Virus record (IMG/VR): IMGVR_UViG_3300044638_008494
Span: 43,023-107,022 of that record
Length of the DNA stretch: 64,000 bases
Direction: 5' to 3' (one strand)
DNA from: a virus
Every line of letters begins with the position of its first letter. Within the stretch, counting starts at the first letter, position 1. The notes below the pieces were generated by a model that was not told the DNA's origin, did no database searches, and was given only the letters and a program-made list of their open reading frames with translations. This document shows, in pieces, positions 8,370 to 35,987 of the stretch. The position numbers were made by a program, and so were the translations under genes.

Positions 8370-11300
8370 TTATGCAGTCTGACCATTTTTAGTTTGTAAT
8401 CCAGCAATTTGCCTATTAACAGCATCAATTGCCGATGCAAGTTCTGCTCTTAACTGCTCTTGAACTTCCGATATTTTTGCTCCAACCTCAGCAATTGCCT
8501 CTTCAGACATTGATACGTCTATTTTAAAATCAGTACTAATATCAACAGGAAAACTAATATCTTGATTTAAAGTCATTTCTTTTCCACCATCTTCTACTGG
8601 CTGCTGAGATACCTCTCTCTGTGGTGACTCTTGAACTTGCTTAGTTTGTTCTTCAACTATTCCACTATTTTTATTAACAGCCTCACGACTACCATCTAAT
8701 GACTTTTTCAATTCCCTTATTTCTTCTTTTCCTTGCTCGATATTTTTAGGAGGGGCCATCGGGGCTTGAGGCTCAACTCCGATTGGCGGTTTTGATTCTG
8801 GGTTAAAATTTGGATCATAATACCCTAATCCCCCATCTGGCTGTGGAAACATTTTCGGAGGAGGAAGCGTTGGTTTAGGAAATTGAGGAAAAGCTGGGCT
8901 TAACAAAGGAGACTGAGGTGTATATGGTCGAGTTAGTGGCCCACCAATTGGCTGCAATGGAGATTGGATTTGTGGATCCGCAAATTGACCAACCAAAGGA
9001 TTAACTCCTCGATTTGTAAATGGAGACGCAGTAGGTGGAACATATGGTGAAACTGCGGGGTTATTATAAGGAAAAGGCTTTGGAGCCTGAAGCGGCATAC
9101 CCACGCTACCAGCTCCACCCTCTCCGAAATTAGGATCATAAAATCCTTGACTTCCATCAGGCTGAGTAAATGTTTGCGGCGGAGGAAGCGTTGGTTTAGG
9201 AAATTGAGGAAAATTAGGTCTTGGCGTCAATACTTCTCGCATATTTTCCGCTGACCCACCCAACATAACAGATCCTTCTAGCGCACTTACTATCTTATCT
9301 CCATTTAAATCTATAGCACCTATCATTTTTATAGCAAATGGATTAAGAGAATTTTCTAAAACAGACTTTATAATCGGCATAACGTCAGTCGCCATTGTTC
9401 CATCTATACCCTTGTTTAACATACCATCTCTGGAAGCATTTGGGGCTTGATATGGCATTTGCGACAATAATGATGTTACATCATAAGTGTTTCCAGCCTT
9501 TAACTCATCTCTTAAATACTGTATTACTGATATCATTTTATCATCTGATATTTTTTGTCCAGCCAGTAATGCGTCAATTGAAGATTTTAATTGTTGCTGA
9601 AAATCATCGACATTTTTAATTTCAGAATTTGCATTCTGGCTCTTTTGTACGGCGAGCTGATTTACGGACCGACCAGTATCGGTCGCCTCCACTTTTAATT
9701 CGTTTTTCAAATATTTAGAAAAATTTTCTTTTAAACTATCCGCAAACTCTTTTCCATACTTATTCATAGCATCAACTGCCAATTTATTATTTGGATCTGC
9801 CCTCCATTGGGTTAACTGCTCTTTTGTCATTGATTGAGACCATTGGCCCGACATTCGACCTTCTTCATTAAACATTTGATGTGTTTGATATTTATCTCCC
9901 CAACTTAACAAATCAGCACCAGGATCATCTGGTCCGTAGTTGTATTTCCTACGAACTACATTTTGATAATTTTTTTCTTCAATTTCTTTTATTATTTCTT
10001 GAAATGATTTTCCTAATGGGCCACTTGATGCTCCTGATATGTTTGTATTCGGAAGTTTATTTAAAATTTGTTTTAGTATAGAAATATTTTGAGCTACAGC
10101 TTGGTCTTGCTGCGCTTGAGATGCTTCCATTGCTTTAGCGGCCGCTGGGCTTATAATTGTAAAATTTCCGCCACTAGAGCCGCCAACGCCACTAACACCA
10201 CCAACGCCGCCAGCACTACCAGCACCACTAACACTGCCAGTAGTAGCTGCTCCCCGCATTGCTGCTTTTATTGCACTTGCGGCTGCTGTGCTTGTTATTG
10301 GGGGATTTGTTGTGGCGCTTCCTCTAGCATTAGACTGCATACTAAATGCACCGCCAGAAGTTGATGGGCATAATGCATTAATAGCTGTTTGCGCACAATT
10401 TGCCAAATTTAGTAATTTTTCCGCAGCATTATCTGCTTCTTTTTGTAATCCAGTAAAGGCTTGTTGTGAAAATTTATCCATATTTATTCCCACATATCCA
10501 ATAGATTTAACCAGATCTTCAGCTGCTTGATTGAATGGGTTAGCAAATTTTTGCCCAGGCTTCATACCGCCAAACTGCTGATTAACCATATCAACCACAT
10601 TTGCTCGACCCAATCCCTTTAAATTACCCAAACCAATAGCATCAAGGTATTCATCGGATTGATCTTGCAACATTGCTGTTAATCTTGATCTTTCTCCTCT
10701 TTGGTAATTTTCTGGAATTCCAAGAGCTTCCATAGCTTCTAATCTTCTGATTGACTGTTCGCGCTCGAACTTGTCCATTTCTCTTTTATATTTTAATGGC
10801 CCAATTTCGCCAGCTTGGTATGCCCTACGAAGCTCAGTTCCCTCCATTTGTGTTGGGTCAAATCCTGATAATCCAGAAACCCCACCAGCATATCCTTGCA
10901 TTTTTTGCATGCGATCATTAAATCTACCAACTGCAATATCGAATGCCTGTTGAACTTTTTGTGCAGCATTGTTAAAATCTATATTTTGTAGCGCCTGTTT
11001 TAAATTAAAATTTGCATCTTCAAGGCTTTTCTCATATGCGTCCTGCAGCCCTTTAGGCAATTTTGATAAATCAATTTTTTGTATATCTTCTATAGTTACA
11101 GCTTTTGCAATTTGTTCGGATACATTTTGCAAATCTACAACCTCTCCACGGTTAGCAGATGTTGTTAAATCTGCATTTTTTATATTATCTTGCAATTGCG
11201 GAACAAATGATCCCTTTAATGTATCAGCCGCTTCTTTACTTGCTTCTATAAAATCAATATAACTTTGCTGATCAATTCTTGCTGCGCCAATTGCCGCTTC

Positions 11301-14300
11301 TTGTTCAAAAGATGGGGTTCTGTACTGCATAATCGCAGTATCAGTTTGCGTGGCTAAGCCTAAATTAAATTTAGGTATATCTATTTTTAAAATTTTATTT
11401 AAGCTTCCTATTAATTTTGCAGAATTATCAAGCGCGTTTTTATTTTTTCTAAAATTATTAATATAATCTTGAACTACTTGTGGCAATTGTGAAATATTTT
11501 TTCTACTCTGTTCTTCAAGTCGAAGAGTATTTTGATTTTCTTCTAAACGCTTTTTCAAATTTTTAGATAAATCTTCTGATAATCCTCTTAATTCTGCAGG
11601 TGATGCTTTTTTAAATGCTTCTTTTAATTTTTCAAGTTCTTCTGCGGTGCCTTCCCCGCCTTCTTTCAACATGCTTAAAATATTATCAAATTCTTCTCCA
11701 ATACGGACCGCGTCAAATCCTTTTAATTTTTCCACCGAAGGAATTACCTTGTTTAACATGTCTATGCGGCCCTTAGTATCAACATCTTCTCCACCGGCAT
11801 AATCAAATGTAGATAAAATAGAATCAGCAATTTTTTTAGATTGATCTTTTCCTATATTGGTCCATGATGTTATAAATTCTTTACCAATATCTGTAGTTAA
11901 CGATTCAATATTTGCACCTCTTGTTTGATCTTGTATATATTTAGCTAAAATTTCTTGCTGTTTTGCAACATCATTTGTCGCAGATATTTGGTTTTGTATG
12001 CTTGGTGGCAACTTTGATAATTGTCGCAAGTATTCATTTTCTGCTCTTGTTATATCTTTAATTGGGGCATTGGATTCAGTTAAATCACTTAATTTTTCTC
12101 TAGCTATTAGTAATCCTTGCGTAGACTCTTGTGCTCTTTGTGCATTTTCTGTTGCTTTTTGAACTCTTTGAGATGCATCGCCCAATCCATTTATAGATAA
12201 TGCTAGCGCATCTACAATTGGCTTTGCTGATAATGCAGCTCCAACTATTCCTCCTATTATTGCGCCTGGTGCTCCACCGCCAACTGCCGCGCCAGCCCCT
12301 GCAAAACCACCAATATTGCCTAATCCAGTCAAAAGTGACCCCGCAACTGTTTGATCTCCACCAGCTATCTGAGATCCTATTCCGCTTGCTGTTTGAAGGG
12401 CGAATCCCAACCCCAAACCTTTATTTTTTGCAAACTCATCAAACCTTTCTCTTTTAGTCAAGCTTCGTTTATTTATAGCAGATTGAATTGTTGCTGCTCT
12501 TTCTTCAGATTTGGCCTGATCTCTCGCTACACGCTCTCTTCTTTTTTCCCTTTCTATTTGACCAGCCATTCCAGTATCTGTCCATGTCCCTGCTTGGGCA
12601 TTATATAATGTAGGATTTTGTCTGGCTGTATTTTCCTGAATATCTAATTTTTGCAAAAGCTTGTTTTGCCTATTTATTCTTTGCTGGTTAGATTCAAATG
12701 CTTGATCTAATGTTTGTCCGGTGGATTTTAGTTCTCCTTTTAATTTTCTTAATTCTTTTGCTCCATCATCCAGCTGTCCTCCAAAAAATGCTAGAGAAAA
12801 TAGCAATCCAGAAATTGATGCTGAAATTGCTGTAAAATCTGTTGCTCCAGAGGTGAAATTTGTTGCTCCAGAGGTGAAATTTGTTTCATTATCTCCTGCG
12901 GCAAAATTTGGAATGAATCCAGAAGAGGCCAATAATCCAGCACCTTTCTGCATCTCTGCAGAATCCTTCATGGCGCGATTTTTTCCACCATGTTGGCGCA
13001 TAGCTGAGGCAAACGAAGGCTGACTTTTATTTCTTACGTGCAAGAATGGCTTATCATCTATTACGGCTTTTTTTCCAGAAATAGATTCTTCTAAAGCAAT
13101 AACTTCTTTGACATACTGATCTGATTTTGCAAAATTTGGTATAAAACCAGAAGCTGCCATATCAGAAGTTTTGCGTATATTTTGATTATAATTTCTTAAT
13201 TCTTTTATGGCCATTGGGCTACTAGCCAGCGACTGCAAATCCTTATCTGATAAGCCCAACTCTTTTGCTCCTTGAACAAGTGGCTTGTATTTTAAATCTC
13301 CGATCTTAATTGCGTCCAGATTAAATCCAGCATTAGATTTAGATCCGTACAGCAGTTCTTTAAATTTATTTAACTTGTCTGGCGTTCCAAGTTTTAACAA
13401 CGATCCTTGCTGTATTCTTGCCAAGGCAGATTGTGCCGCAGATCTTTCTCCAAGGGTAGCGCCGCGCTTCATCAATTCTTGAATTGCTTGTATATTTACA
13501 AAATTTGGTATAAAACCAGAAGCAAATTTACCAACATTCGGCTGACTTTCAGATGCAATCCTCTTAGCCATATGTCCAAATACTATTGGGTCAATAAGCC
13601 CTACTTTATTTGTTTTTATTAAACCTTCTGGAGAAATTCCACCTTCGCGCGCCTGTATTTGCGCTTCTTTTGGAAGTGGGCGCATAAATGTAAAATTCGC
13701 TGATGAGGCAGTATCTAAAGCTAATGCTTGCAACCAATTTGGCTTTTCGCTTACAGACCTTTTTGCACTCTCAAATCTTGAATTGACAATAGCAATTAAA
13801 GATTTTTCTACCTCATAATCGTTAATTTCATCTTTAAATGTATTACCAGCAAATCTTTGCGATGTTACCAATGAGTTACCAGAGACTCTTCTTAAAGGCA
13901 ATAATTGTAAATTTGAATCAGTTTTTTTTAGTTGCCTTGTAGCTTTTGCCCAATCTATTGAACCAATATCTCTTAATTTACCTCTTTGTTGCATTGGGGA
14001 CTTGTAATCTAAAGTCGGTAATTTTAGAACTTTACTTCCGGTTTTAAACGCATGAGATTCTGCCCCACTGCCTAGATATTGTAAATCAGGATATTGTTGA
14101 TATAATTTATTTATACGCTTTTCAACTGCTGGTTTTTGTTTAATCTCCTCAAAATTAAACGAACTCTTATTTCGTATTTGCTCTAAAATTGGGCTATCTG
14201 CAAAATTTGGTATAAACCCACTTGCCATAGCAAACATCCCTTGCTGGTTTGGATATTTTTTTGCAAATATTGCTCCTAATTTTGCTACAATATCAGGATC

Positions 14301-17300
14301 TCTTAAAGCTTCTTGTGGCAATCTATTCTTTTTGACAAAGTCTTTAATCCATTGTGCTTGAAATTTATTTCTTCCAGCCATCATTGGATTTGCTGCAAAT
14401 GCTGGAATAAAACCATCGGCAGCGCCAGAAGATTGTAACGCTGCCATTCTTTTCTCTACTTCTATTTCAAACTGTGATCGCGCTCCTCCCCTTCTAAGAA
14501 CTAGCCCTTCTTTTCTAATACTTTCAATAGCTTTTATTCTAAGAGCCTGAACTTTTCCAAAACCAGGCCCACTTTTTACTTGTTTAACTGCACCAGGTTT
14601 TGCTTCGTTGAGTAATTTTTGCATTACTTCATTAGTTGCACCCGATGAGCTTTTTGCATCATACATTCCAGGCGCACCATGAAATAATTTTCTTAATCTT
14701 GGCGTTATTCTTTCTTGTCTAAAATCAATACCAGCATTTTGAGAAGTTTTTTGTAAGCCTTGCTGAAGTAAAGTAATTAATCCACCCTCGAAGGCAACGC
14801 CAACGGCACCCTCTGCTGCTCCATAGTTAGGAAGATCTTTTGGTGATTTTAAAAAGTTTTCACCTCCTAAAACTTGTCCGAATTGATTCGCCTCACGAAC
14901 AAGTAGGTCGCCTAAATTTTTTTTCAAATCAGGGAGCTGGCCTTTAATAACATCTTTATTAATTCCAGCAACCGGTATTAGCCCTTTGTATTTTTTGCCA
15001 AGATACGAACCAGCGCCCGGTGCCATTGTGTAACCTTCAGAAATATTAGGATAAATAAGAGATACAACCTTGCCATTTAATGCTTTAGATGTTCTCGTAT
15101 CACCAAGATCAATAATTTCATCGCCTTCCTTTGATGATTTGGCAAAATTTGGTATAAAACCAGAAGCTGCATTTGGAACAACCAATTTATAATTGCTTGG
15201 CATAAAAATATTATCCTTTTGTGGAGGATTTTGTTTTTTGCTTTTTCCGTAATTAGTTTCAATAACTTTAGAAATTAAATTATCGTTGTCTATTGTTCCA
15301 AATTTCACCTCGCCCACTGGTTTTCCTTTTGAATTTAATAGGTCCATTCTTGCAGTTTTTGATTCTGCAACTTGCAAACCAAGACGATTCGCAGCAAATC
15401 TCTCGAAATATTTACCAACAAGATCATTTTTTACCCCAGTGAATTGTCTGTCCTTATTAACTAATTTTGTATTGCCAGATAATAAGCTAGGAACCTTTTC
15501 TTTATTTGTGAGCAAATTTTGTTTTAACTGGCCAATTTGTTTTATAGAATACCCATTTCTTGTAAAATATTTAACAGCAGTCTCTGATAGCTTTGAATCT
15601 TTGGAATTTAAATTATTTAATTGTTTATCAAATTGATTTTCAAATGAAGATCTACTACCAATCGAAATAATATCAAATGAAAATGGAGAATATGTATCTA
15701 AACCCTTATTTGCTACTTGAGATGATTGTACTCCAGTTATAGTACCACCTGGCAAAGATTTTTTATTTTTTGGTTGTGCGAAATTTGGCACAAACCCAGA
15801 TGCAGATATTTTTTTAGCTCCATCAGGTAGACCATATTTGCTTTTCATTTCCCTATTCCATACAGCAGTTCCATCACCACCACCATAATTAGGAACAGCC
15901 CATTCTCCAGTATGAGCCACCATTGTCCCCTTTTTATTATTTCCCATTGGGAAATTTTTCATTACAACTGGTCTATCTTTTGCTGGATTTGCGTCACCAA
16001 CTCTATTATTAATATTATTTTGCTCTGCTGCTAGATGCGGCAAAAAGCCACCAGCCGCAGTTTTAACCTTAGAACCTCTTTGTGTTATAAAAGATTTTCC
16101 ACCCACGTTTTGCACACCAACTTGAGACGCTGTTGTTTTTGCTATCTGTGCTGCTATAGAATTTTGCTTTTGCAACTCTATGGTTTGCTGCTTTACAATT
16201 TCTAAATATGCTTTTGCCCCAGAAGCAACAGAGGCTTGGCCGCTAGATATTGCCTTGTATATACTAGCATTATTTTGTAAAAATTTTACAACACTTTGCT
16301 GTATTACTGCTTGTTCTTTAGCTGCTTGATTTACCCCTAAAATACTTTTAAAAGCTTCAACACCATATCTAGAAAATTCTGCAAATAGTTTAACTACCGC
16401 TGCCGTTACCAAAGCAAGCCCTGGTCCGCCAATAAAATTTCCAATTCCGCTTATTATTCCGCTACCAATTTTTGCACCAATACTATCAGCATCAACATTG
16501 TTCACGGCACCAGTGAGAAATTCAGAAATATTTAAAACATTTTTTGCAGCTGGCTCAAAAAGTCCACCAGCAATATTTCCTCCAGCTTGCTGTATATTTG
16601 CCAAGGCACGCGTACCTCTAGCAGAAAGTGTTTCATTTAATTTTTCATTACGCCTTATGGCCTGATCAGTAGTTCCAAGTGATGTTTTTAAAGCTTGGTC
16701 ATATATTGAATATTCCTTACCAAGATCTCCCAGCGCAGCTTTTAATACGTTAATTTGGAATACACCGCCAACCTGCTCAGCTACATAGTTTTTTTGCGTT
16801 GCAGATAATCCATCGTAAACACTAGCAAGTTCTTTCAATAATTGTACTTGCGTTTTTACATTACCCTCGGCATCTGTAGATTGTATGCCTAGCCCACCCA
16901 AAACTTCTTGTGTTTTTTCTCTACCAAGTCTTGTAAATATAGTTTTTAATGAGTTACCTATAACAGCACCGCCTCGAGCCGTAACTTGTTGCGCGGTGGT
17001 TACTAAAGCGATCAACTCATCAAAAGAAATTCCAGCATCATCAGCGGAAGATCCAACGCGGCTAAGTGCGTTTGCTAAATCCGCAGAACTAACAGCAAAA
17101 GCAGCATCAACGTTAGCTAGTTTATTTACAATTTCAGTTGCTTGTAGCGCAGATCCCCCAAACGAGTTGATTGCGGCTGTTAATGCAGATACGCTAGCGG
17201 CGGCATCCAATCCACTTAAACGTGTTAAGATCAAAGCCGCTTCTGTTCGCTTTAATGTTTCTTCTACCCCAAGACCTTGACGAGAAAGTTCCGTAGCAGC

Positions 17301-17696
17301 TTCGGCAACCACATCAAACGATTGCGCTGTGTTCCCAGCGATATCGAATAATGAAGCTCCAAATTTCGCTAAATTTCTATCTGTCAAATTTAACAGAACA
17401 TTAACATCTGCTAATTTTTTTTCTACATTTACAAATGTATTAAATAAAGAAGTAACAGCGCTTTGTATCGCAAAGATTGCACCAGCAGATGCAGCAAAGG
17501 CAATAACGCGCGCGTTCGCTGCGGCCAAAGACTTGTCGATTTCTTGTATTTGACCGCTAATTTTGCCCAATGGCTGTGCTGCGCCACCTGCTGTTTGAAT
17601 ATTTAGAGTAACACCTTGCTTGGCAACCTGATCAATTTGCCGCCTAAGTTTCGCGGTATTACCATCAACATCTACTCTGATATTTGGATTAGCCAT
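8370..17696 (-). CDS. Tail tape measure protein, 3108 aa, with embedded cargo-like domains
   Basis: This is the largest gene. Residues 1-450 carry the typical tape-measure start: Ala/Leu-rich helices and a conserved-looking block around ELSRQGLGVEETLKRTEAAL with AGISFDELIALVTTAQQ. Hydrophobic segments occur near residues 415-440, about 1620 and about 1800. Residues about 547-1590 contain eight ASGFIPNFA-type motifs that separate mixed alpha/beta segments. Two of these resemble PD-(D/E)XK nucleases and one resembles a protein kinase fold. Long coiled coils, a duplicated Pro-rich region near the C-terminus and a final helical tail follow. At the usual 0.15 nm per residue the length would give a tail near 450 nm, less if the inserted domains do not span the tube. 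It lies between the assembly proteins and the tail-tip genes. Confidence 0.93.
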   Translation of the reverse strand: MANPNIRVDVDGNTAKLRRQIDQVAKQGVTLNIQTAGGAAQPLGKISGQIQEIDKSLAAANARVIAFAASAGAIFAIQSAVTSLFNTFVNVEKKLADVNVLLNLTDRNLAKFGASLFDIAGNTAQSFDVVAEAATELSRQGLGVEETLKRTEAALILTRLSGLDAAASVSALTAAINSFGGSALQATEIVNKLANVDAAFAVSSADLANALSRVGSSADDAGISFDELIALVTTAQQVTARGGAVIGNSLKTIFTRLGREKTQEVLGGLGIQSTDAEGNVKTQVQLLKELASVYDGLSATQKNYVAEQVGGVFQINVLKAALGDLGKEYSIYDQALKTSLGTTDQAIRRNEKLNETLSARGTRALANIQQAGGNIAGGLFEPAAKNVLNISEFLTGAVNNVDADSIGAKIGSGIISGIGNFIGGPGLALVTAAVVKLFAEFSRYGVEAFKSILGVNQAAKEQAVIQQSVVKFLQNNASIYKAISSGQASVASGAKAYLEIVKQQTIELQKQNSIAAQIAKTTASQVGVQNVGGKSFITQRGSKVKTAAGGFLPHLAAEQNNINNRVGDANPAKDRPVVMKNFPMGNNKKGTMVAHTGEWAVPNYGGGDGTAVWNREMKSKYGLPDGAKKISASGFVPNFAQPKNKKSLPGGTITGVQSSQVANKGLDTYSPFSFDIISIGSRSSFENQFDKQLNNLNSKDSKLSETAVKYFTRNGYSIKQIGQLKQNLLTNKEKVPSLLSGNTKLVNKDRQFTGVKNDLVGKYFERFAANRLGLQVAESKTARMDLLNSKGKPVGEVKFGTIDNDNLISKVIETNYGKSKKQNPPQKDNIFMPSNYKLVVPNAASGFIPNFAKSSKEGDEIIDLGDTRTSKALNGKVVSLIYPNISEGYTMAPGAGSYLGKKYKGLIPVAGINKDVIKGQLPDLKKNLGDLLVREANQFGQVLGGENFLKSPKDLPNYGAAEGAVGVAFEGGLITLLQQGLQKTSQNAGIDFRQERITPRLRKLFHGAPGMYDAKSSSGATNEVMQKLLNEAKPGAVKQVKSGPGFGKVQALRIKAIESIRKEGLVLRRGGARSQFEIEVEKRMAALQSSGAADGFIPAFAANPMMAGRNKFQAQWIKDFVKKNRLPQEALRDPDIVAKLGAIFAKKYPNQQGMFAMASGFIPNFADSPILEQIRNKSSFNFEEIKQKPAVEKRINKLYQQYPDLQYLGSGAESHAFKTGSKVLKLPTLDYKSPMQQRGKLRDIGSIDWAKATRQLKKTDSNLQLLPLRRVSGNSLVTSQRFAGNTFKDEINDYEVEKSLIAIVNSRFESAKRSVSEKPNWLQALALDTASSANFTFMRPLPKEAQIQAREGGISPEGLIKTNKVGLIDPIVFGHMAKRIASESQPNVGKFASGFIPNFVNIQAIQELMKRGATLGERSAAQSALARIQQGSLLKLGTPDKLNKFKELLYGSKSNAGFNLDAIKIGDLKYKPLVQGAKELGLSDKDLQSLASSPMAIKELRNYNQNIRKTSDMAASGFIPNFAKSDQYVKEVIALEESISGKKAVIDDKPFLHVRNKSQPSFASAMRQHGGKNRAMKDSAEMQKGAGLLASSGFIPNFAAGDNETNFTSGATNFTSGATDFTAISASISGLLFSLAFFGGQLDDGAKELRKLKGELKSTGQTLDQAFESNQQRINRQNKLLQKLDIQENTARQNPTLYNAQAGTWTDTGMAGQIEREKRRERVARDQAKSEERAATIQSAINKRSLTKRERFDEFAKNKGLGLGFALQTASGIGSQIAGGDQTVAGSLLTGLGNIGGFAGAGAAVGGGAPGAIIGGIVGAALSAKPIVDALALSINGLGDASQRVQKATENAQRAQESTQGLLIAREKLSDLTESNAPIKDITRAENEYLRQLSKLPPSIQNQISATNDVAKQQEILAKYIQDQTRGANIESLTTDIGKEFITSWTNIGKDQSKKIADSILSTFDYAGGEDVDTKGRIDMLNKVIPSVEKLKGFDAVRIGEEFDNILSMLKEGGEGTAEELEKLKEAFKKASPAELRGLSEDLSKNLKKRLEENQNTLRLEEQSRKNISQLPQVVQDYINNFRKNKNALDNSAKLIGSLNKILKIDIPKFNLGLATQTDTAIMQYRTPSFEQEAAIGAARIDQQSYIDFIEASKEAADTLKGSFVPQLQDNIKNADLTTSANRGEVVDLQNVSEQIAKAVTIEDIQKIDLSKLPKGLQDAYEKSLEDANFNLKQALQNIDFNNAAQKVQQAFDIAVGRFNDRMQKMQGYAGGVSGLSGFDPTQMEGTELRRAYQAGEIGPLKYKREMDKFEREQSIRRLEAMEALGIPENYQRGERSRLTAMLQDQSDEYLDAIGLGNLKGLGRANVVDMVNQQFGGMKPGQKFANPFNQAAEDLVKSIGYVGINMDKFSQQAFTGLQKEADNAAEKLLNLANCAQTAINALCPSTSGGAFSMQSNARGSATTNPPITSTAAASAIKAAMRGAATTGSVSGAGSAGGVGGVSGVGGSSGGNFTIISPAAAKAMEASQAQQDQAVAQNISILKQILNKLPNTNISGASSGPLGKSFQEIIKEIEEKNYQNVVRRKYNYGPDDPGADLLSWGDKYQTHQMFNEEGRMSGQWSQSMTKEQLTQWRADPNNKLAVDAMNKYGKEFADSLKENFSKYLKNELKVEATDTGRSVNQLAVQKSQNANSEIKNVDDFQQQLKSSIDALLAGQKISDDKMISVIQYLRDELKAGNTYDVTSLLSQMPYQAPNASRDGMLNKGIDGTMATDVMPIIKSVLENSLNPFAIKMIGAIDLNGDKIVSALEGSVMLGGSAENMREVLTPRPNFPQFPKPTLPPPQTFTQPDGSQGFYDPNFGEGGAGSVGMPLQAPKPFPYNNPAVSPYVPPTASPFTNRGVNPLVGQFADPQIQSPLQPIGGPLTRPYTPQSPLLSPAFPQFPKPTLPPPKMFPQPDGGLGYYDPNFNPESKPPIGVEPQAPMAPPKNIEQGKEEIRELKKSLDGSREAVNKNSGIVEEQTKQVQESPQREVSQQPVEDGGKEMTLNQDISFPVDISTDFKIDVSMSEEAIAEVGAKISEVQEQLRAELASAIDAVNRQIAGLQTKNGQTA
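8803..9214 (-). repeat. Duplicated proline-rich segment inside the tape measure gene
   Basis: Two copies of a roughly 85-bp stretch (about 8805-8892 and 9127-9212) share long identical blocks. They encode FPQFPKPTLPPP followed by QPDG and YDPNF in both copies. This is a local in-frame duplication in a Pro/Gly-rich, probably unstructured part of the protein. Confidence 0.75.
12841..12882 (-). repeat. Perfect 21-bp tandem duplication in the tape measure gene
   Basis: A 21-bp unit occurs twice in direct succession (12841-12861 and 12862-12882), with a partial third match beside it. It encodes the heptad NFTSGAT repeated in frame, so it lengthens the protein without breaking it. It looks like recent replication slippage. 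Confidence 0.85.
12902..16058 (-). repeat. Eight dispersed ASGFIPNFA-type motif repeats in the tape measure
   Basis: Copies occur at about 16032-16058 (AAGGFLPHLAAE), 15778-15804, 15142-15168, 14393-14421 (ADGFIPAFAA), 14201-14227, 13499-13523, 13129-13154 and 12902-12929. The consensus peptide is ASGFIPNFA. They are spaced 55-240 residues apart, and the segments between them are unrelated to each other. The motif therefore looks like a linker or docking element that punctuates separate domains. Confidence 0.85.
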
Positions 17697-17766: not shown

Positions 17767-18753
17767 TCAGCTCTTGCTAGCCAATTCGTATATTCCCATG
17801 CTTCCCTTTGTTTGGGATTCAGAAATTATTTTATCTCCCAATATATCACCGCCAGCAATGCTTTTAACGTCATCCCTATCTCCAAATAAGAAAGTAGATC
17901 CCTTATTTCCTTTTTTATTTTTACTGGTAGATTCTACTCGTTTCCTATTCTTTAAAGATTCAAGCCATTGATCTAATTTATCGGGGTTATCGTAAACCCC
18001 ATCTGGAATTTCAGCGTCAGAGTTTTTAATTATATTTTGATAATATTTCCCCCAAATTAAAACTTCATGCTGATTTTTTGTTAGTTTTATTACTGGCTTT
18101 CCAAACACTTCCATAGATGTGCTCCCTATATACAAGATATTTTGAAAATGATGAGATATGGCTGTTTTTTTTATTATTTTAGAAGAGAAATCGGATAAAT
18201 ATTTAAAATAGTAATATGTTGCCCAATCTAAGATATTTTCAGACTCTTCATCTAGATTTTTATTAAATAATAACTCTTTTAAATCTTCATTTTTAAATAA
18301 AAAATTTTGCAAGAAAAAATCAGAAGTTTTTTTTGTGGCCCACTCCTCTGATGTCATTACGATAAAGGATGATCTTTCTTTATTTAACTTATCTAATTTT
18401 TCATGCTCAGAATTAACTTGCTCGTCAATACGCTTTTTATCAGAATCATAGATTAGTTTTGATCTTGTTGTATTTAATCTATTAATTGTTGATTTTAATA
18501 TTCGAATTTGATTCTCTTTTTCTTCACTCCACCACCCATATTTGGATGCAAGCGCCACCTGATCTTCTTCTCCAAGTATTCCATTAACGCTGGCTTCATT
18601 TAAAAATCTATCATAAATATCTCTTATCTGAAGAGACTCTGATTGGGTTAAATGCTTTAAGTATATTTTTCCGTAATTTTCTATTTGGTATACGGAATAG
18701 CCATTAGATATATCTTCAAAAACGGCCAATACATCAACACTTTGGCCACTCAT
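17767..18753 (-). CDS. Putative tail assembly protein, 328 aa, between tail tube and tape measure
   Basis: The gene sits where siphoviruses encode tail assembly chaperones, directly upstream of the tape measure. The N-terminal half is mostly helical with a charged coiled-coil stretch (about residues 85-125). The C-terminus is Lys/Ser/Gly-rich and looks disordered. It starts 9 nt after the stop of the 258-residue gene. No slippery heptamer producing a fused product was evident, so the classical frameshifted chaperone arrangement is not supported. It may coat the tape measure during assembly; that is inference from position. Confidence 0.5.
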   Translation of the reverse strand: MSGQSVDVLAVFEDISNGYSVYQIENYGKIYLKHLTQSESLQIRDIYDRFLNEASVNGILGEEDQVALASKYGWWSEEKENQIRILKSTINRLNTTRSKLIYDSDKKRIDEQVNSEHEKLDKLNKERSSFIVMTSEEWATKKTSDFFLQNFLFKNEDLKELLFNKNLDEESENILDWATYYYFKYLSDFSSKIIKKTAISHHFQNILYIGSTSMEVFGKPVIKLTKNQHEVLIWGKYYQNIIKNSDAEIPDGVYDNPDKLDQWLESLKNRKRVESTSKNKKGNKGSTFLFGDRDDVKSIAGGDILGDKIISESQTKGSMGIYELASKS

Positions 18754-18762
18754 AATGTTAGT

Positions 18763-19539
18763 TTATTCCTCGCTTGGCTTTGTGTCTTCTATTTTATTTT
18801 CTTTATTTTCTTCAGTATCAGCGGCAGTACTGTCATCTGCTGATCGATTTGACCCAGAATCGCTATCTTTAAAATCTTGCCAATTCGAGATTCTGTTTAA
18901 AAACCAAAGCGTAATTAAATAATTAAATCTTTGACCAACCTTTATAATAAAGGCTTCATCTTCATTGTCTGGATCAAGCTGATCATACCAGTCCAGCATT
19001 TCATCGTAATTTTCACCATTAAAAAACTGCTCGTCTTCGCTTTTATAAGCTAATTGTGTTAACCACCATTGGATGGTTGCATTTCTTGCCTTAGCCTCTG
19101 CCGTATTTTCAAAAATGTAAATTTGCTCAAGCTCAAATGTTTGAATCTCCCTTTTTGATTCTTCAATTTGCAATTCAAGTTTTGCTTTTTGAAGTTTTTG
19201 TTTATTATCTAATTCGGGCAATTGGTTTAATTTGTTCAACTCGATACTTGATTCAAAAAATGTTCTTTTGGCTTTAGTATAATCCTCTGCTTCAGAGTTT
19301 GAAATTGTTCCTCCTAAGTTTTCTAAAATAGTATTCCAAGCGGCTTTTGGCAATAGGCCAGCCTTAACAAAGCTCGCTAACTGTTTTGCGTATTCAACTT
19401 CGCCAAGTTGCCGCAAGCTTCTTGATGGTTTTAAAATATAAAATCTTTTCTCTTCATTCTTATTGTTTTTAGCAATGAATGAGTAAATCCATTTTTTAGT
19501 ATCAAAGTCCGGTTTATCCTGCACATCATTATTATTCAT
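18763..19539 (-). CDS. Putative tail assembly chaperone, 258 aa
   Basis: An acidic, mostly helical protein with an N-terminal beta/helix part (FYILKPSRSLRQLGEVEYAKQLA), a central coiled coil (about residues 90-140) and a disordered acidic Ser/Glu/Asp tail. It lies between the tail tube and tape measure genes, the standard chaperone position, and the sequence at its start (resembling a description of substrate-binding core residues) fits that role only loosely. It begins 5 nt after the 79-residue gene. It could instead be a minor tail protein. Confidence 0.5.
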   Translation of the reverse strand: MNNNDVQDKPDFDTKKWIYSFIAKNNKNEEKRFYILKPSRSLRQLGEVEYAKQLASFVKAGLLPKAAWNTILENLGGTISNSEAEDYTKAKRTFFESSIELNKLNQLPELDNKQKLQKAKLELQIEESKREIQTFELEQIYIFENTAEAKARNATIQWWLTQLAYKSEDEQFFNGENYDEMLDWYDQLDPDNEDEAFIIKVGQRFNYLITLWFLNRISNWQDFKDSDSGSNRSADDSTAADTEENKENKIEDTKPSEE

Positions 19540-19877: not shown

Positions 19878-20987
19878 TTATACCAAAGCAGCTGCTGGAA
19901 AACTTCCAGACAAGAAGATACCACGTTGATTATCTTCTGGGCCACCAATTGGAACTTCAAAACTTGCAGTTAGCGTAGCATTGTCTCCGATTGATGTTGA
20001 CAAGCTTTGACTTACAAGCTTAGCACCTTTAAGTGTTGCGCTCATTGCCAAATCTCCTGCACCAGAGCAGTCGATCTTCTTAAGCTTTAAGGTTAAATCG
20101 TATACTCCAGTATCGCAAAGAAGGCTAGAAATATTTCCATCTGAAAGATTTCCAACTTCAGCATCTATATCTAGCGTAGCTGTAACTGGAAAGTCAATTT
20201 CTCTAGCAAATGAGAAGCGGCTTCCCAATTTGTTCAATGGCGTTCTTGCTAAATCAAAACTCATGGTTGCTGATTGAACTTTCAAGTCAGAAGCTGAGTA
20301 CCCAATGATTCCAGTAATATCGATAGTAGCATCGCCTGGAAGAAGTGCTGTTGGTTGTGCGCCATAAGCGTTTGTTTTGTGCTGAGGCAATCTGAATGCC
20401 TGTGACGTAATTGGCAATCCATTTACTGGATTAACAGCAGGAACATCGTTATTACCATCAACTGATGAGTAAATTCTAGCATTAAGTGCTTCCAAATCAA
20501 CTGTAGCTGTTGGAATATCGCCCACTGCAACATTCAAGCTATATGAAGTAACATAACTATTTCCAACACCAACAACTCCGGTTACCCCTGCATAGTTTGA
20601 TGCGTCACTACCTTCAGATGCGACTAAAAGATATAGATTTTTTTCGTCGGTTGTCTTTTGAAGAATATCTTTTAAGCATGAAACTTGTGCTTGGGTTCCT
20701 GTAGCAACAGTTAGTCCTAGCAATTTTTCATTTAAACCATCTGTTACATAGTAAGATAAGCTTGCTGAAACTGTTGGGGCTTCTGTGTCAAGACGATCAA
20801 TTGCTGCAAGATTTCCAAATTGGTTAATATCTTGTAGATTTCTTGTGAAATCTGAATCAAATGATTGAACACGGGTAAGCTGTTTGATATCAGCTGATCC
20901 GGTTTGCGCCACTCTAGCACCGTTTGTTCCAGTAGTTTGGCTTGCGAATACTCCTAGTGATTGATATATAATGCGATTTCTGCTCAT
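19878..20987 (-). CDS. Major tail tube protein, 369 aa
   Basis: The protein has the composition of a tail tube subunit: Thr/Ser/Ala/Gly/Val-rich, low charge, with recurrent beta strands and matched halves (SYSLNVAVGDIPTATVDLEA and PVTATLDIDAEVGNLSDG resemble successive tube folds). It lies between neck proteins and tail assembly genes and is followed immediately by a strong terminator, as expected for a high-copy product. An AT-rich leader with no clear Shine-Dalgarno precedes the ATG. A duplicated tube fold would explain its length, which exceeds that of simple tube proteins of 150-250 residues. No tail sheath-like gene was seen next to it. Confidence 0.75.
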   Translation of the reverse strand: MSRNRIIYQSLGVFASQTTGTNGARVAQTGSADIKQLTRVQSFDSDFTRNLQDINQFGNLAAIDRLDTEAPTVSASLSYYVTDGLNEKLLGLTVATGTQAQVSCLKDILQKTTDEKNLYLLVASEGSDASNYAGVTGVVGVGNSYVTSYSLNVAVGDIPTATVDLEALNARIYSSVDGNNDVPAVNPVNGLPITSQAFRLPQHKTNAYGAQPTALLPGDATIDITGIIGYSASDLKVQSATMSFDLARTPLNKLGSRFSFAREIDFPVTATLDIDAEVGNLSDGNISSLLCDTGVYDLTLKLKKIDCSGAGDLAMSATLKGAKLVSQSLSTSIGDNATLTASFEVPIGGPEDNQRGIFLSGSFPAAALV

Positions 20988-30699: not shown

Positions 30700-32131
30700 C
30701 GGTTAACGTAAGATTAAATTGAGTATAATACAGATTGGCCATAAAAACAGCATCATGCCCAGAAAAACCACTAGCCAATATATATAATTTAGTATCATTA
30801 GCGCCACTTAAAAATATACTATATTTATCATTTCCACCAAACAAATCGGCTTGATCTTTTATATCAATTTTTAAATTTGTTCCCCGCTGCACAACGAAAT
30901 GCTTGCGTCCATATATGCCATCCGAAGCAACATCATAACTGGCATAAAAATCTTGAATATTATATCTTGCAGCTACATAATCAATATGGCCCATAATTAC
31001 AGAGCCTGTTTGAACAAAAATTCCATCGTAATTACTTTTTGGAACGCGCATTTTTTTAATAGGATTAAATCCAGTAACGCCAAATCCGCCAGAAATTACC
31101 GCTTTCATGTGGATTGAATTGTAGAATGTATTATCTGAAGATGTTCCAACAGCGAAACCATATGGATGATTATAGGTAGATCCATGAAAATTATTAGCAT
31201 TTATTAATGTAGCGCCTTTTGTTTCAAAAAACGTTGAGCCTGTAGAATTTATTATGCAAGTATTTTCGCACCGTTGAGCAACGTTATTGCTGCTTCTTAT
31301 TAAAGATGAATTTTTATTGCCAGACGTAAAATTGCTAGATCCATGAACGAACAAATCTTGATCTCCGCCAAAATTATTTGCATTTCCAATAAATGAAGTT
31401 CTGTTATCAGAAACGTTAATAAGCGTATTGTTTGCCCCCCAACCACTTCCTATATAGTCTAATATGATTGTTTTTTGCCCTGTTCCGTTAAATATTCCCA
31501 TGTCTTTACCTGGCAACAAAAACAGTGGACCACCTTGTATGCCATTAATTGCATTTACTCCAGAAAATGCAGCTTGTCCAGCATCAATAATTATTGATTG
31601 TCCCGTTGGAATTACTTCTACCCCATTTCTTCCAATTAAATTAATGTCTCCTGATCTTGAATTAATTCTATATACCGCATCTGCCCTTATTCTTAAATTA
31701 TTTCCAGAAATATACGTTTGAACCCCTTGTTCACCAACAATTGTATATCCACTAATTGCTATTTGATTTGAATTTAATGGCCACACTACAACACTTCCCA
31801 TTCCAGTAAGGCTTACATTGCCAGACAAAGAATTTAAAGTCCCAACTGTTCCACCACCGCTAGGAAAAATATATAATGTAGAATTTTGAAAATAAGTGCC
31901 AATGCCACTGAATCCAGTAATATTGATAGCGCCTGTTACTCCGTTAATATTATTTAAGATTCCCCTATTTCCATTTTGAACTGTTAAAATTAAAGAATCT
32001 CCACTTTCTATTCCAACCAGCCCAGAAGTAGCATATATATTATTATAATTAGGATATAAAGGAGAAGTATATGCTGTTACTAATCCAGAAACATCAGGGT
32101 GCAGTTGAGAGGCGCGAATAAGAGTATTCAT
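30692..32131 (-). CDS. Fibre-like beta-structural protein, 479 aa
   Basis: The N-terminal 190 residues contain repeated INGVTGAINITGFSGIG-like stretches (LNSLSGNVSLTGMGSV, INSRSGDINLIGRNGV), a repeat seen in phage fibre shafts and capsid fibres. The C-terminal half has short repeated strands with Asn at turns (ANNFGGDQDLFVHGSSNF, ANNFHGSTYNHPYGFAVG) that suggest a right-handed beta-helix. The ATG overlaps the portal stop codon. The next gene overlaps its end, so portal and both fibre genes seem co-translated. Head-proximal fibre is the favoured but unproven role. Confidence 0.6.
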   Translation of the reverse strand: MNTLIRASQLHPDVSGLVTAYTSPLYPNYNNIYATSGLVGIESGDSLILTVQNGNRGILNNINGVTGAINITGFSGIGTYFQNSTLYIFPSGGGTVGTLNSLSGNVSLTGMGSVVVWPLNSNQIAISGYTIVGEQGVQTYISGNNLRIRADAVYRINSRSGDINLIGRNGVEVIPTGQSIIIDAGQAAFSGVNAINGIQGGPLFLLPGKDMGIFNGTGQKTIILDYIGSGWGANNTLINVSDNRTSFIGNANNFGGDQDLFVHGSSNFTSGNKNSSLIRSSNNVAQRCENTCIINSTGSTFFETKGATLINANNFHGSTYNHPYGFAVGTSSDNTFYNSIHMKAVISGGFGVTGFNPIKKMRVPKSNYDGIFVQTGSVIMGHIDYVAARYNIQDFYASYDVASDGIYGRKHFVVQRGTNLKIDIKDQADLFGGNDKYSIFLSGANDTKLYILASGFSGHDAVFMANLYYTQFNLTLTDD

Positions 32132-34026
32132 TATTTTTTAGAATGATAAAGTACAGCTGCCTCATCTGGCCCAATTTCATGATATGCGGCTATATCAAAA
32201 ACTTCTTTTGATATTTCATTTTTTGTAACATCAGATATTGGATTTTCAATATAGTTATTAATTGATTTCGTCCAGTTTGTTTTTTCTTCAGAAGAGACGA
32301 TAATGTTGGCAACATCTAATGCTATATTTTTTTGTGCTTGGTTTAATTTTTTAATTTTATATTTTTTCTTCAAAGCGTCACAAATACCCGCTTCCAAAGC
32401 GTCTTTATCTTTAAGAGTCTGGCTAATCAATTTTGTACTAAATTTGTATGAAGCTACAGATTTTTGACCAACTGGGGTGATTTTTTGTGTTGTTTGCGCT
32501 GCTGGCGTAGCTGATGGCCTGCCTGCTTGCCCTGCTGGCTGTTTTGGGTTTAAAAGTGGCTCATAAAATCCCTGCTCTTTTTCCAATATCATTTCTTTTT
32601 GCGATTCAGCCAACTCATAAGGTTCCGGCAACACATTTGTATTGATTGCAGAAATTGCATCTTTCGGAGATATTGCTCCTAACTCAAGAAGTCTTGTATA
32701 AACTCTTGACAAAACAGCAGAATCATTTCTAAAATTATGCGTTTTCCATTTTGGTTCTGGTGCCGATTTAAAATTCATAGTTTTAGCGATTTCACGAATT
32801 TGTGGCCCCAGAAATTTAGTCATAAATTCTTGCCTTGCAAACTCAAGCCTTTTGAAAAATGCATCCATTTTTGCGCTTGCATTTGCAAATTTATCATCAC
32901 CAAAAATAATATTATTTAAACCTAAACGAATATCACGATCTACAATTTCATACTTTTTAGGATCTAAAATGTCTCCAATTTGCGGTATCACAAATTGTGC
33001 CTTTGTTGTATAGTCTGCTATCAAAACTCTTCCAACGCTACCATTTTCAAAAATTTTTCGAAGCACTTCTTGGCTTTTTTGGCTTGGTGGCCCAAGCTCT
33101 TCATCGCCTTGAGTTATTAACAATACAGCTTGCTGTATAGTTCTTGAAATAGCCATGTCTACCTTTTTAAGCTCAAGCTTCCAATTTATATCTTCCAAAA
33201 CAGGAAAGCCCATAGGAACAGCAAGTGGTTCATAATCTTGTTTTTTATAAAAAATACTAACCAAACGATCTGAATCTAATGATATTTCTAAAGATTGATT
33301 TCCATTTTTTATATTTTTAAGCTCTGGGATAGTCGATGCAATTTTTTTATCTTCTTCGCTTGTTGGTTTTAATAAAGCACCTATCTCAAATGAATTCAAT
33401 CGCTTTTTGTAAATTGGCGCGGTAAAACTAGAAGATGCTAATACTTGAATATCATATGGATTCAAAATAATATACTTTAATGGAATTTTAAGCGCTGCTT
33501 CCATAATATTCATTTGCTGCAGCTTGCGTAAACTTTCTCTAGGAAATTCTCCAAATAATTTATAAATGAAAACATTTCCACTGCGGAAATATTCGCGGAA
33601 AAACATATCCGTTAATTGCCATAAATTAATTTTTTCTGCCCAAATATTAAAAAAGTTTCTTGACTCTTTATTTCCGCCAGAAAATGTAATTTCTGAAATT
33701 GCAAATTCTGTCATCAAGTCAATTGTGTTTCTAAAAATTGGCACATTCCAATATGCTTTTTGACACAATAAGATTGTATCTTGCAATGAAATATTTGTAG
33801 CATATTTGCCGCTATTTTTTTCATATAAAAACGGAGCAACTCCAGCTTCAAGATTTGCAAACCTTTGAATTCTGGTTATGCTACCAGCAGAATTCGACCT
33901 TGAACCCCTTTCTGGGGTTGTATCGCAAGAGCCAATTAGCTTATCATAATCATCCAAGCTAGCTGTTAGTGGCTCCGAAATCTCCTTTTTGCTCTTTTTA
34001 GACCTTGTACCTTTTTTAGATATCAT
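32131..34026 (-). CDS. Portal protein, 631 aa
   Basis: The gene directly follows TerL. After a basic disordered start, residues about 90-160 show the pattern of portals: AYWNVPIFRNTIDLMTEFAI, then FFREYFRSGNVFIYK, and residues about 175-190 IPLKYIILNPYDIQV. The middle contains the helix-rich stem region, and the C-terminus is a Pro/Gln/Lys-rich tail followed by a helical domain. It would form the dodecameric ring through which DNA is packaged and ejected. A CTGTAATA element lies upstream of the start. No protease or ADP-ribosyltransferase fusion was recognised. Confidence 0.88.
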   Translation of the reverse strand: MISKKGTRSKKSKKEISEPLTASLDDYDKLIGSCDTTPERGSRSNSAGSITRIQRFANLEAGVAPFLYEKNSGKYATNISLQDTILLCQKAYWNVPIFRNTIDLMTEFAISEITFSGGNKESRNFFNIWAEKINLWQLTDMFFREYFRSGNVFIYKLFGEFPRESLRKLQQMNIMEAALKIPLKYIILNPYDIQVLASSSFTAPIYKKRLNSFEIGALLKPTSEEDKKIASTIPELKNIKNGNQSLEISLDSDRLVSIFYKKQDYEPLAVPMGFPVLEDINWKLELKKVDMAISRTIQQAVLLITQGDEELGPPSQKSQEVLRKIFENGSVGRVLIADYTTKAQFVIPQIGDILDPKKYEIVDRDIRLGLNNIIFGDDKFANASAKMDAFFKRLEFARQEFMTKFLGPQIREIAKTMNFKSAPEPKWKTHNFRNDSAVLSRVYTRLLELGAISPKDAISAINTNVLPEPYELAESQKEMILEKEQGFYEPLLNPKQPAGQAGRPSATPAAQTTQKITPVGQKSVASYKFSTKLISQTLKDKDALEAGICDALKKKYKIKKLNQAQKNIALDVANIIVSSEEKTNWTKSINNYIENPISDVTKNEISKEVFDIAAYHEIGPDEAAVLYHSKK

Positions 34027-34082: not shown

Positions 34083-35987
34083 TTAAATTAGGGTTGGTAT
34101 AAACTGTTCTCTTTTAATTTGAACCTGAGTTTTAACCAATTCAAAATAACACTTTACTCCCCAGTTTCCTAATAATAGCGTGCTGTAGTTATCTTTTCTA
34201 GGTTTATTATTGGCGGTTGAAGTTCTAGCTGACCTTGGGAGATCAAAGCTTTGATGACCTCTGGAAGTTGATGTTACCTCAATATTCGCGCACTGCTCTT
34301 TTGTTGAAATAATAATATCGTCTTGAAGTTCAATAAATTCTCTTATTGATAATTTTCTATTATCTTCTTTGGAGTCGCCCTCTAGAACGCCAGATCCATG
34401 AGGAAATACTAATTTTAATGGAATTCTTAAATTAAACATATAGGACATATATTCTGGATGATTGCTCGCGCGAGAAGCAAACCATATTTTTTTATGATCA
34501 ATACATGATTGCAAATAAGAATTAGATCTCATAATCCAATCAGTACTTGGTGTTTGCCTGATGCACATGCATCCCATATCTGGGCTATATTGCTTTTTTG
34601 CTTTAATAAGCATATCCACTTGATCCTGACCATCTTTAGTAGAATCCCATTCTGTTATATATGTTATTTTTTTACTTATACCCTTAAATAATTCACTTTC
34701 ATTACATGCATCAATAATTGTATCCAAGTTCGAAGAGTCGGCAATTATTAAAACAACGTTAAAATGTGTTAGTACATAATAAATATATTTTATATGATCT
34801 TGAAGATCTGCGCCAACCCTCTGATATCCGTGAACAAGAACTCCTTCTTCTTTTTCCTCATCAAGCTCTATAACTGACATGGCAAAAAAGTCTGATGAGG
34901 CACTTTTTGAATAGTTTGGGTCAATTGATAATATATATTTTTTTAATGGGTCTCCAGTAACTTTAGAATGTGGATACTCACCATCTGGAATGGTACATTC
35001 GTTCATTTTACGCATTGAAAAATACCCATCGCCACCATCACGAAATTGCGCGCCATATTCGCGTTGAAATGAATCTTCTGATATGCTTGCTCTTTGTGAT
35101 TGGATAAATTCTCGGTTTAATATAGTTGCCGGTATAGCCTCCCATCCCATTTGTGATATAAAATAAGTCGGTCTTTCTTCTTCCTTATTATTCATCGTCA
35201 AAATATCCGGACGTTCTACAAAATCAGTCCAGTCAGAATACATTTTATACAAATGCTGAAATTGATAAGATGCAGATGATAAGCAAATCATTTGCGCGGC
35301 ATTTTCAAAAATCATTTTATTATTGGGATGTAATGTGCCAGCTTTAATTAACTCGTCCTCTAACTTTCTAACTTTAATTCTAAATGCTGCATCCCTTGGC
35401 GAAGAAAGGAATGGCGCCAATACATCATTAATCATCTGTGGAGATAATAACAACACCTCATCGAGAATAAGAACGTCACAGCGCATACCTCGCGTATCTT
35501 CGGAAAGCGGAATGGCACATATATATCCGCCATTAACATCCCATTGAAACTTATCGTTTCTTAAATATGGCTTTTTGTCAAAGCATGACCTTGCAAGCTG
35601 AGCCTCTTCCGTGTTTAATAGCCTTACAATTTCTTCAAAAATTCTACGGCTTGTTCTAAAATTTGCTGAAGCAATAACAATTCTAGTACCAGGCTCAAAT
35701 ATGCATTTTAATATACAATACCAACCCGCCAAAGTAGATTTTCCACCACCACGACTAAAAATAAGCATGCAATTATTCTTTTCAAACATTGCATTTATAT
35801 GCATAACCTGCATAGGCTCCATATTAATTCCAAGAATTAACTGCGATGTAAAGCCAATGTTGTGACGCAAGAATTTTGCCAAAGTTATTTTAGCCGTTCT
35901 ATCATCAATCTCGCCATGAAGATTTAGCAGCTCTTTATTTACATCTACTATATCTTTTGCTGGTTGATTTCCTGCCCAAATTGCCAT
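34083..35987 (-). CDS. terL: Terminase large subunit, 634 aa
   Basis: The packaging motor ATPase has a Walker A motif near residue 80 (FSRGGGKST) and a Walker B near residue 172 (CDVLILDEVLLLS). It also has a C-terminal nuclease domain with acidic clusters at YILSIDPNYSKSASSD (about residue 345) and VLIIADSSNLDTIID (about residue 410). The length is normal for the family. It starts 1 nt after the preceding gene, after an AAATAATATAG sequence, and lies upstream of the portal. TerL translocates DNA into the prohead through the portal and cuts the concatemer. Confidence 0.95.
   Translation of the reverse strand: MAIWAGNQPAKDIVDVNKELLNLHGEIDDRTAKITLAKFLRHNIGFTSQLILGINMEPMQVMHINAMFEKNNCMLIFSRGGGKSTLAGWYCILKCIFEPGTRIVIASANFRTSRRIFEEIVRLLNTEEAQLARSCFDKKPYLRNDKFQWDVNGGYICAIPLSEDTRGMRCDVLILDEVLLLSPQMINDVLAPFLSSPRDAAFRIKVRKLEDELIKAGTLHPNNKMIFENAAQMICLSSASYQFQHLYKMYSDWTDFVERPDILTMNNKEEERPTYFISQMGWEAIPATILNREFIQSQRASISEDSFQREYGAQFRDGGDGYFSMRKMNECTIPDGEYPHSKVTGDPLKKYILSIDPNYSKSASSDFFAMSVIELDEEKEEGVLVHGYQRVGADLQDHIKYIYYVLTHFNVVLIIADSSNLDTIIDACNESELFKGISKKITYITEWDSTKDGQDQVDMLIKAKKQYSPDMGCMCIRQTPSTDWIMRSNSYLQSCIDHKKIWFASRASNHPEYMSYMFNLRIPLKLVFPHGSGVLEGDSKEDNRKLSIREFIELQDDIIISTKEQCANIEVTSTSRGHQSFDLPRSARTSTANNKPRKDNYSTLLLGNWGVKCYFELVKTQVQIKREQFIPTLI

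Follow-up and report, generated by a model that had tools for sequence, protein, structure and literature searches.

The question raised by this locus is why a phage tape measure protein should be divided, through a long internal region, into dissimilar segments by copies of one short motif. The protein is encoded in a 64,000-nucleotide stretch (referred to here as the window; positions 43,023 to 107,022 of the IMG/VR virus record IMGVR_UViG_3300044638_008494) by an uninterrupted open reading frame (ORF) of 3108 amino acids (aa) at 8370-17696 on the minus strand. It is identified by family homology as a phage tape measure protein: aa 121-311 match Pfam PhageMin_Tail with an E value of 6.7e-29, exceeding the gathering score, and several PHROG tape-measure families are matched (best 1.6e-42). 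Between aa 547 and 1599 (DNA 12900-16058) it carries eight copies of the motif GF(I/V/L)P(N/H/A)F, six of which read GFIPNF or GFVPNF, the first (GFLPHL) and the fourth (GFIPAF) being degenerate. These are the eight ASGFIPNFA-type motifs of a preliminary description of this DNA, found within 2 bases of the limits given there, whereas in 5000 shuffles of the protein matches averaged 0.003 and never exceeded one. The same description saw a tape measure split by the motif into dissimilar, cargo-like domains, and this has held up: the segments belong to different sequence families, and homologues with the same segmented layout, whose absence it had named as a refutation, do exist. Sequence comparison now takes the matter beyond that description, indicating that cassettes are joined, and crossovers take place, at the motif, in a system shared by a whole lineage of phages, and we propose that the tape measure probably serves as a delivery chassis whose enzyme-like cargo reaches the host together with the DNA or before it.

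Relatives were sought by DNA pattern scans of IMG/VR for GFIPNFA, GYIPNFA and GFVPNFA, counts from which are lower bounds; the three scans gave at least 235 ORFs with two or more motifs. The 556 segments from 209 non-redundant ORFs fell into 133 families (phmmer, E<1e-4), and 36 architectures were present among 108 complete proteins. Homology breakpoints between ORFs lay within 5 aa of a motif in 61% of cases, compared with 7.7% of random positions. Since a conserved motif can itself pull alignment ends inward, the comparison was repeated with motifs masked and interior positions only, and 79% of breakpoints then lay within 8 aa of a motif, compared with 10% of random positions; what tempers this figure is that the breakpoints are non-independent, the same ORFs entering many pairs, and that for unique sites the proportion within 8 aa is 44%. 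The segments of the window protein, to which the individual comparisons below refer, are as follows.

8370-17696, minus strand: tape measure gene, 3108 aa, matching PhageMin_Tail and PHROG families
16065-17696, minus strand: N-terminal tape domain (aa 1-544), 39-78% identical across the lineage
aa 64-82 and aa 421-439, minus strand: hydrophobic segments of the N-terminal tape domain, by hydropathy
16029-16058, minus strand: motif 1, AAGGFLPHLA, degenerate (aa 547-556)
15807-16028, minus strand: N-side bracket module of 74 aa, family c5, with homologues
15777-15806, minus strand: motif 2, SASGFVPNFA (aa 631-640)
15171-15776, minus strand: cassette A, 202 aa, nuclease-like by the pattern GKYFE...D...EVK
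15141-15170, minus strand: motif 3, AASGFIPNFA (aa 843-852)
14424-15140, minus strand: cassette B, 239 aa, core PD-(D/E)XK-like family c0, by conserved residues
14394-14423, minus strand: motif 4, AADGFIPAFA (aa 1092-1101), left junction of the indel relative to L318
14229-14393, minus strand: small module of 55 aa, family c25, with homologues in L012 and L044 and absent in L318
14199-14228, minus strand: motif 5, MASGFIPNFA (aa 1157-1166)
13527-14198, minus strand: cassette C, 224 aa, kinase-like by eye only (GSGAESHAFKTGSKVLKLP; LIDP)
13497-13526, minus strand: motif 6, FASGFIPNFV (aa 1391-1400), right junction of the indel relative to L318
13158-13496, minus strand: cassette D, 113 aa, with a profile match to family c8 (9 members)
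13128-13157, minus strand: motif 7, AASGFIPNFA (aa 1514-1523)
12930-13127, minus strand: C-side bracket module of 66 aa, family c4, with homologues
12900-12929, minus strand: motif 8, ASSGFIPNFA (aa 1590-1599), closing the cargo bay
8370-12899, minus strand: C-terminal tape domain (aa 1600-3108), weakly conserved across the lineage
aa 1621-1639 and aa 1817-1835, minus strand: hydrophobic segments of the C-terminal tape domain, by hydropathy

Relative L318 is 76% identical to the window protein over window aa 1-1103 and then skips exactly from motif 4 to motif 6, so that the insert present only in the window consists of the 55-aa module and cassette C as one unit. At this indel L318 has a single motif, whose left flank corresponds to that of window motif 4 and whose right flank corresponds to that of motif 6; cassette A is intact in L318. 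Two other relatives, L267 and L282, are 96-97% identical over long stretches and differ in two whole cassettes; at one of their junctions the DNA identity is 90% to the left and 99.7% to the right, the switch falling inside the 21-nucleotide motif, within which a near-identical 18-nucleotide stretch is shared. L319 and L320, with 75% N-terminal identity to the window protein, carry a single cassette. These alignments demonstrate that the phages insert, delete and exchange cassettes in frame, with crossovers located within the approximately 20-bp coding sequence of the motif.

Among the ORFs listed with at least two motifs, 123 have an intact 5' end, and every one of these carries the same tape-measure N terminus; the reversed motif, used as a control, occurred once in 3029 ORFs. 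The motif therefore belongs to the tape measure. A motif-blind sample, obtained by scanning the N-terminal alignment against IMG/VR (585 relatives, of which 80 were examined), gave two or more motifs in 68 of 68 complete ORFs, these motif counts sharing sequences and hence not being independent. Variants such as GMVPNYA and GHVPNFS were seen in two incomplete relatives, L307 and L373, that the strict pattern had missed. The motif was absent from every other frame of the window and from the 43 kb of the 107-kb virus record that lie beyond it. Four 5'-complete ORFs of about 1820-1830 aa (L229:3714-9170, L257:22-5517, L273:8848-14334 and L297:6992-12487), without homology to the present tape-measure N terminus, have one GGFVPNFA near the C terminus and are possibly another tape-measure type bearing the same element.

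Across the relatives the order is N-terminal tape, motif, bracket, motif, then a variable number of cassettes (at least one), each with a motif after it, then bracket, motif and C-terminal tape. The brackets measure about 55-90 aa on the N side and about 50-70 aa on the C side; each side has alternative bracket families, and some relatives have an outermost motif that is degenerate or escaped detection. Their positions are nevertheless regular, 23 of the 24 homologues of family c5 directly following the first motif detected in the ORF and 29 of the 31 homologues of family c4 directly preceding the last. Four motifs, that is, one cassette between brackets, were present in 61 of the 108 complete relatives; the bay of the window holds four cassettes and one 55-aa module. 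Its inter-motif segments (55-239 aa) are Pro- and Gly-rich, the longest run free of both residues being no more than 34 residues, and on this composition one continuous helix through the bay, the other refutation named in the preliminary description, was rejected. Much longer inter-motif segments, of 900-1240 aa as against the usual 55-300 aa, were seen in L051:1384-5097, L134:787-4101 and L069:822-3530. The N-side bracket of the window (15807-16028) reads AHTGEWAVPNYGGGDGTAVWN...YGLP, which we take to recall the GEFVV element of many siphophage tape measures; tblastn of this bracket against cultured phages gave no match, and the likeness may be a hint of the origin of the motif. Further along the protein, its C-terminal part (window 8370-9300) includes a near-duplicate Pro-rich stretch, FPQFPKPTLPPPQTFTQPDGSQGFYDPNF and FPQFPKPTLPPPKMFPQPDGGLGYYDPNF.

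The consensus of the motif over 1030 copies is A-[AS]-[SG]-G-[FY]-[IV]-P-N-F-A, with N at 97%, the G and P having been fixed by the search pattern; conservation is confined to positions -3 to +6. Synonymous codon agreement between copies within one gene was only slightly above expectation (Pro, 0.51 against 0.40 expected; Asn, 0.68 against 0.68), which indicates that the motif is conserved mainly as protein and rules out a purely DNA-level recombination signal, its DNA apparently providing short homology for swapping. On hydropathy the motif was rejected as a membrane segment, and the membrane-interacting linkers suggested in the preliminary description are not supported, as hydrophobic 19-mers lie mostly outside the bay (93 of the 108 proteins have them before it, 62 after it and 5 within it). 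Most likely the motif would act as a uniform joint in the protein, a short element for docking or spacing that the tube, a chaperone or neighbouring chains recognize, and as such it would allow any motif-ended cassette to fit any other, while supplying the short DNA homology for exchange. The alternative that survives best, although we think it rather unlikely, is that the motif is a proteolytic processing site at which the tape measure would be cleaved to give separate effectors, either at assembly or once in the host. A short, near-invariant element, found at every junction and unconserved outside -3 to +6, does resemble a protease site, but no protease was linked to it in this analysis, a Pfam scan of 140 cassettes detected no metallopeptidase, and motifs flank the small brackets beside the tape domains, where cuts would sever the ruler. 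Processing concerns the role of the motif only and is compatible with the delivery model.

What the cassettes resemble was examined by residue conservation and by profile searches. The commonest, made up of families c0 and c3, is present in 97 of the 108 complete proteins. It has the pattern GxxFE, then D, then (D/E)xK, and among 70 aligned members G125, D150 and K174 are invariant (100%) and E129 is conserved at 97%. This cassette bears the residue signature of PD-(D/E)XK nucleases and is a candidate nuclease; its alignment gave nothing significant against PDB sequences. Cassette A matches the profile of family c41 (L001 and L048; hhalign 94.7%), with a Pfam match to DUF6998 (E=0.007) below the cut-off, and single-sequence searches of viral contigs found no relatives of cassettes A and C. 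A weak match to cassette A elsewhere in the genome was discarded, as it falls in a DNA polymerase III alpha-like ORF. Cassette D matched family c8 in hhalign (83% and 70%). In the relatives, a P-loop cassette about 153 aa long shows Walker A in all 20 members, its alignment matching the P-loop protein 6c2u in the PDB (2.4e-6), and a HAD-like cassette (138 aa) has DxDGT in all seven members, as in HAD phosphatases, with no significant match of its alignment to PDB sequences. Pfam matches above the cut-off were to SNase (1.8e-9), GNAT (2.1e-5, in L096) and HIGH_NTase1_ass (3.3e-8); that of a GHKL ATPase-like cassette to HATPase_c fell just below it, and other sub-cut-off matches (e.g. Diphtheria_C, E=0.13) were set aside as noise. 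A kinase-like cassette of four relatives, called by eye, has GSGAE or GRG, VGVKK, DLHG and a DPG motif, its alignment giving nothing significant against PDB sequences. No muralytic domain and no homing-endonuclease family were detected in the Pfam scan of 140 cassettes, and muralytic cargo was ruled out on this ground; one cassette matched a PHROG endonuclease (E=3.7e-4). When representatives were compared with cultured phages by tblastn, the P-loop, core and HAD cassettes gave no match and the SNase cassette two remote ones.

The cargo is under purifying selection, with a median ratio of non-synonymous to synonymous substitution rates (dN/dS) of 0.17, compared with 0.09 for the N-terminal and 0.26 for the C-terminal tape. 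This bears on the possibility that the cassettes are structural length spacers or neutral filler, the motif being a tube-contact repeat and the enzyme resemblance vestigial. Tape measures do tolerate insertions, and the complete proteins range from 1012 to 3516 aa, with a cargo span of 51-2193 aa; but, besides the selection on the cargo, active-site-type residues are invariant, recognizable enzyme families occur among the cassettes and the Pro/Gly-rich composition is unlike coiled coil, and we regard this explanation as improbable. Least credible of all is that mobile or selfish elements make up the cassettes, with homing-like insertion at motif DNA driven by the nuclease-like core and the others hitchhiking, for which the prevalence of the nuclease-like cassette, the crossovers inside motif DNA and the homing endonucleases known to interrupt tape measure genes (PMC10448857) might speak, but against which every cassette is in frame within one ORF, many are not nuclease-like, the synonymous codons mark the conserved unit as mainly protein, and the scanned cassettes gave the single PHROG endonuclease match and no homing family.

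We favour the tape measure as a delivery chassis, and from the features described we infer both delivery and enzymatic activity of the cargo. Conserved N-terminal and faster-evolving C-terminal tape domains enclose a bay of distinct, mostly soluble enzyme-like domains, which would lie in the tail tube as a section of the tape measure. Tape measures occupy this tube and are expelled from it, and a part in the membrane conduit has been proposed for them (PMC9022992; PMC13277306); the cargo would accordingly travel in the tail and exit together with the DNA or before it. As the inner width of the tube is just about 4 nm (a value for a contractile tail; PMC9022992), the cargo is probably extended or unfolded there. 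The hydrophobic stretches flanking the bay would insert in the host membrane and the cargo would reach the cytoplasm, where it could fold, as has been proposed for the C-terminal domain of Sle1 after entry (PMC13277306), and act early; the nuclease-like core might, for example, act on host or rival DNA, and accessory enzymes on host defence or metabolism. Several points weigh against this. Folded domains of 20-25 kDa are hard to fit in a 4-nm tube, and the dN/dS values and conserved residues indicate selected proteins, not delivery. The majority of cassettes have no match to known families; the PD-(D/E)XK call is made from a residue pattern, the profile having found no solved relative, and cassette C of the window, kinase-like by eye, has no Pfam or PDB sequence match. 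It is with some reserve that we suggest the stronger formulation, in which the tape measure is a polymorphic effector carrier, a universal nine-residue joint permitting the exchange of folded enzyme cassettes like cartridges, so that each phage may inject a custom payload through its tail before or with the genome. A search of the open full-text literature, with bioRxiv and most subscription papers outside it, found no description of a motif-bounded cassette bay in a phage tape measure, and such carriers might, equally tentatively, amount to a widespread delivery platform, not described before, in a phage lineage without cultured members.

The comparison with injected polyvalent proteins made in the preliminary description is apt as an analogy. 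Polyvalent proteins of phages and conjugative elements combine many small effector domains (kinase, GNAT) in one polypeptide encoded near virion genes and are proposed to enter the cell with the DNA (PMC5512222, Iyer et al. 2017). The present protein likewise unites several distinct effector-type domains in a late gene product, here within the tail gene itself. Of the domain types known from polyvalent proteins, GNAT was matched above the cut-off in one relative (L096), and kinase-like cassettes were called by eye. It differs in that the carrier is the tape measure, that one short universal motif bounds every domain and that cassettes recombine there; the word 'tape' does not occur in the text of PMC5512222, and the zincin-like metallopeptidase that commonly, though not universally, serves self-processing in polyvalent proteins was not found by Pfam among the 140 cassettes. 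The Streptomyces proteins Sle1 and Tme are tape-measure-related effectors of contractile injection systems (PMC13277306, PMC11126660), and domain swapping in Sle1 altered the phenotype experimentally (PMC13277306). They share with our protein a tape-measure derivation and exchangeable functional domains, and ejection through the tube, a feature seen for Sle1/Tme, would apply here too; however, they belong to bacterial systems and have an N-terminal coiled-coil tape-measure part with a C-terminal functional domain and no motif-bounded tandem array, whereas here the multi-cassette bay is internal, with a tape domain on either side, and the phage record has matches to terminase and portal. MuF polymorphic toxins of temperate phages are also virion-linked proteins with variable effector domains (PMC5576092), and so far similar, but their carrier is a MuF head-region protein with a variable toxin domain, and Pfam detected no MuF domain in the present tape measure or its cassettes. 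Homing-endonuclease insertions take the form of an intron, an intein or a free-standing gene, in contrast to the uninterrupted ORF seen here. Some tape measures carry muralytic or Rpf-like domains (e.g. SPbeta YomI and actinobacteriophage tape measures). Extra domains within the tape measure are common to these and the present protein, but the recognizable domains here are mostly of intracellular enzyme types, with no muralytic one in the Pfam scan of 140 cassettes, and we know of no tandem motif array in the muralytic or Rpf-like tape measures.

Among the cultured phages of INPHARED this virus has no close relative. The matches listed for the tape N terminus are about 24-31% identical (SPbeta YomI, about 28%, being among the best-scoring cultured relatives), the terminase shows 21-27% identity, and no relative was found there for the presumed capsid protein or, by tblastn, for the cargo of the window. 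The lineage of the virus seems to be deep and uncultured. A scan of bacterial genomes found close relatives in metagenome-assembled genomes only, labelled Flavobacteriales, Flavobacteriaceae, Neomarinimicrobiota, Halobacteriovorax, Proteobacteria and Verrucomicrobiales, which leaves the host uncertain. In the region around the tape measure (window 1142-28000), ten head and tail genes were scanned and none matched a PHROG; such matches were limited to the terminase (34083-35987), the tape measure itself and, weakly, the portal (32131-34026). The tail is presumably long and non-contractile, given the tape measure and no evident sheath gene. Two adjacent genes (17767-18753 and 18763-19539), without PHROG match, occupy the position expected for tail assembly chaperones and lie between the tape measure and a tube-like gene (19878-20987), itself called by position only.

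These findings address two open questions, how proteins might be delivered through long phage tails and how the very long tape measures of metagenomes are shaped. The motif delimits candidate effectors for cataloguing and testing, in more than 100 segment families of which most match nothing known. Should the cargo indeed be delivered, the phages would possess a recombining arsenal of early effectors comparable to polymorphic toxins, and the chassis would show how a tape measure can take up foreign domains and stay intact.

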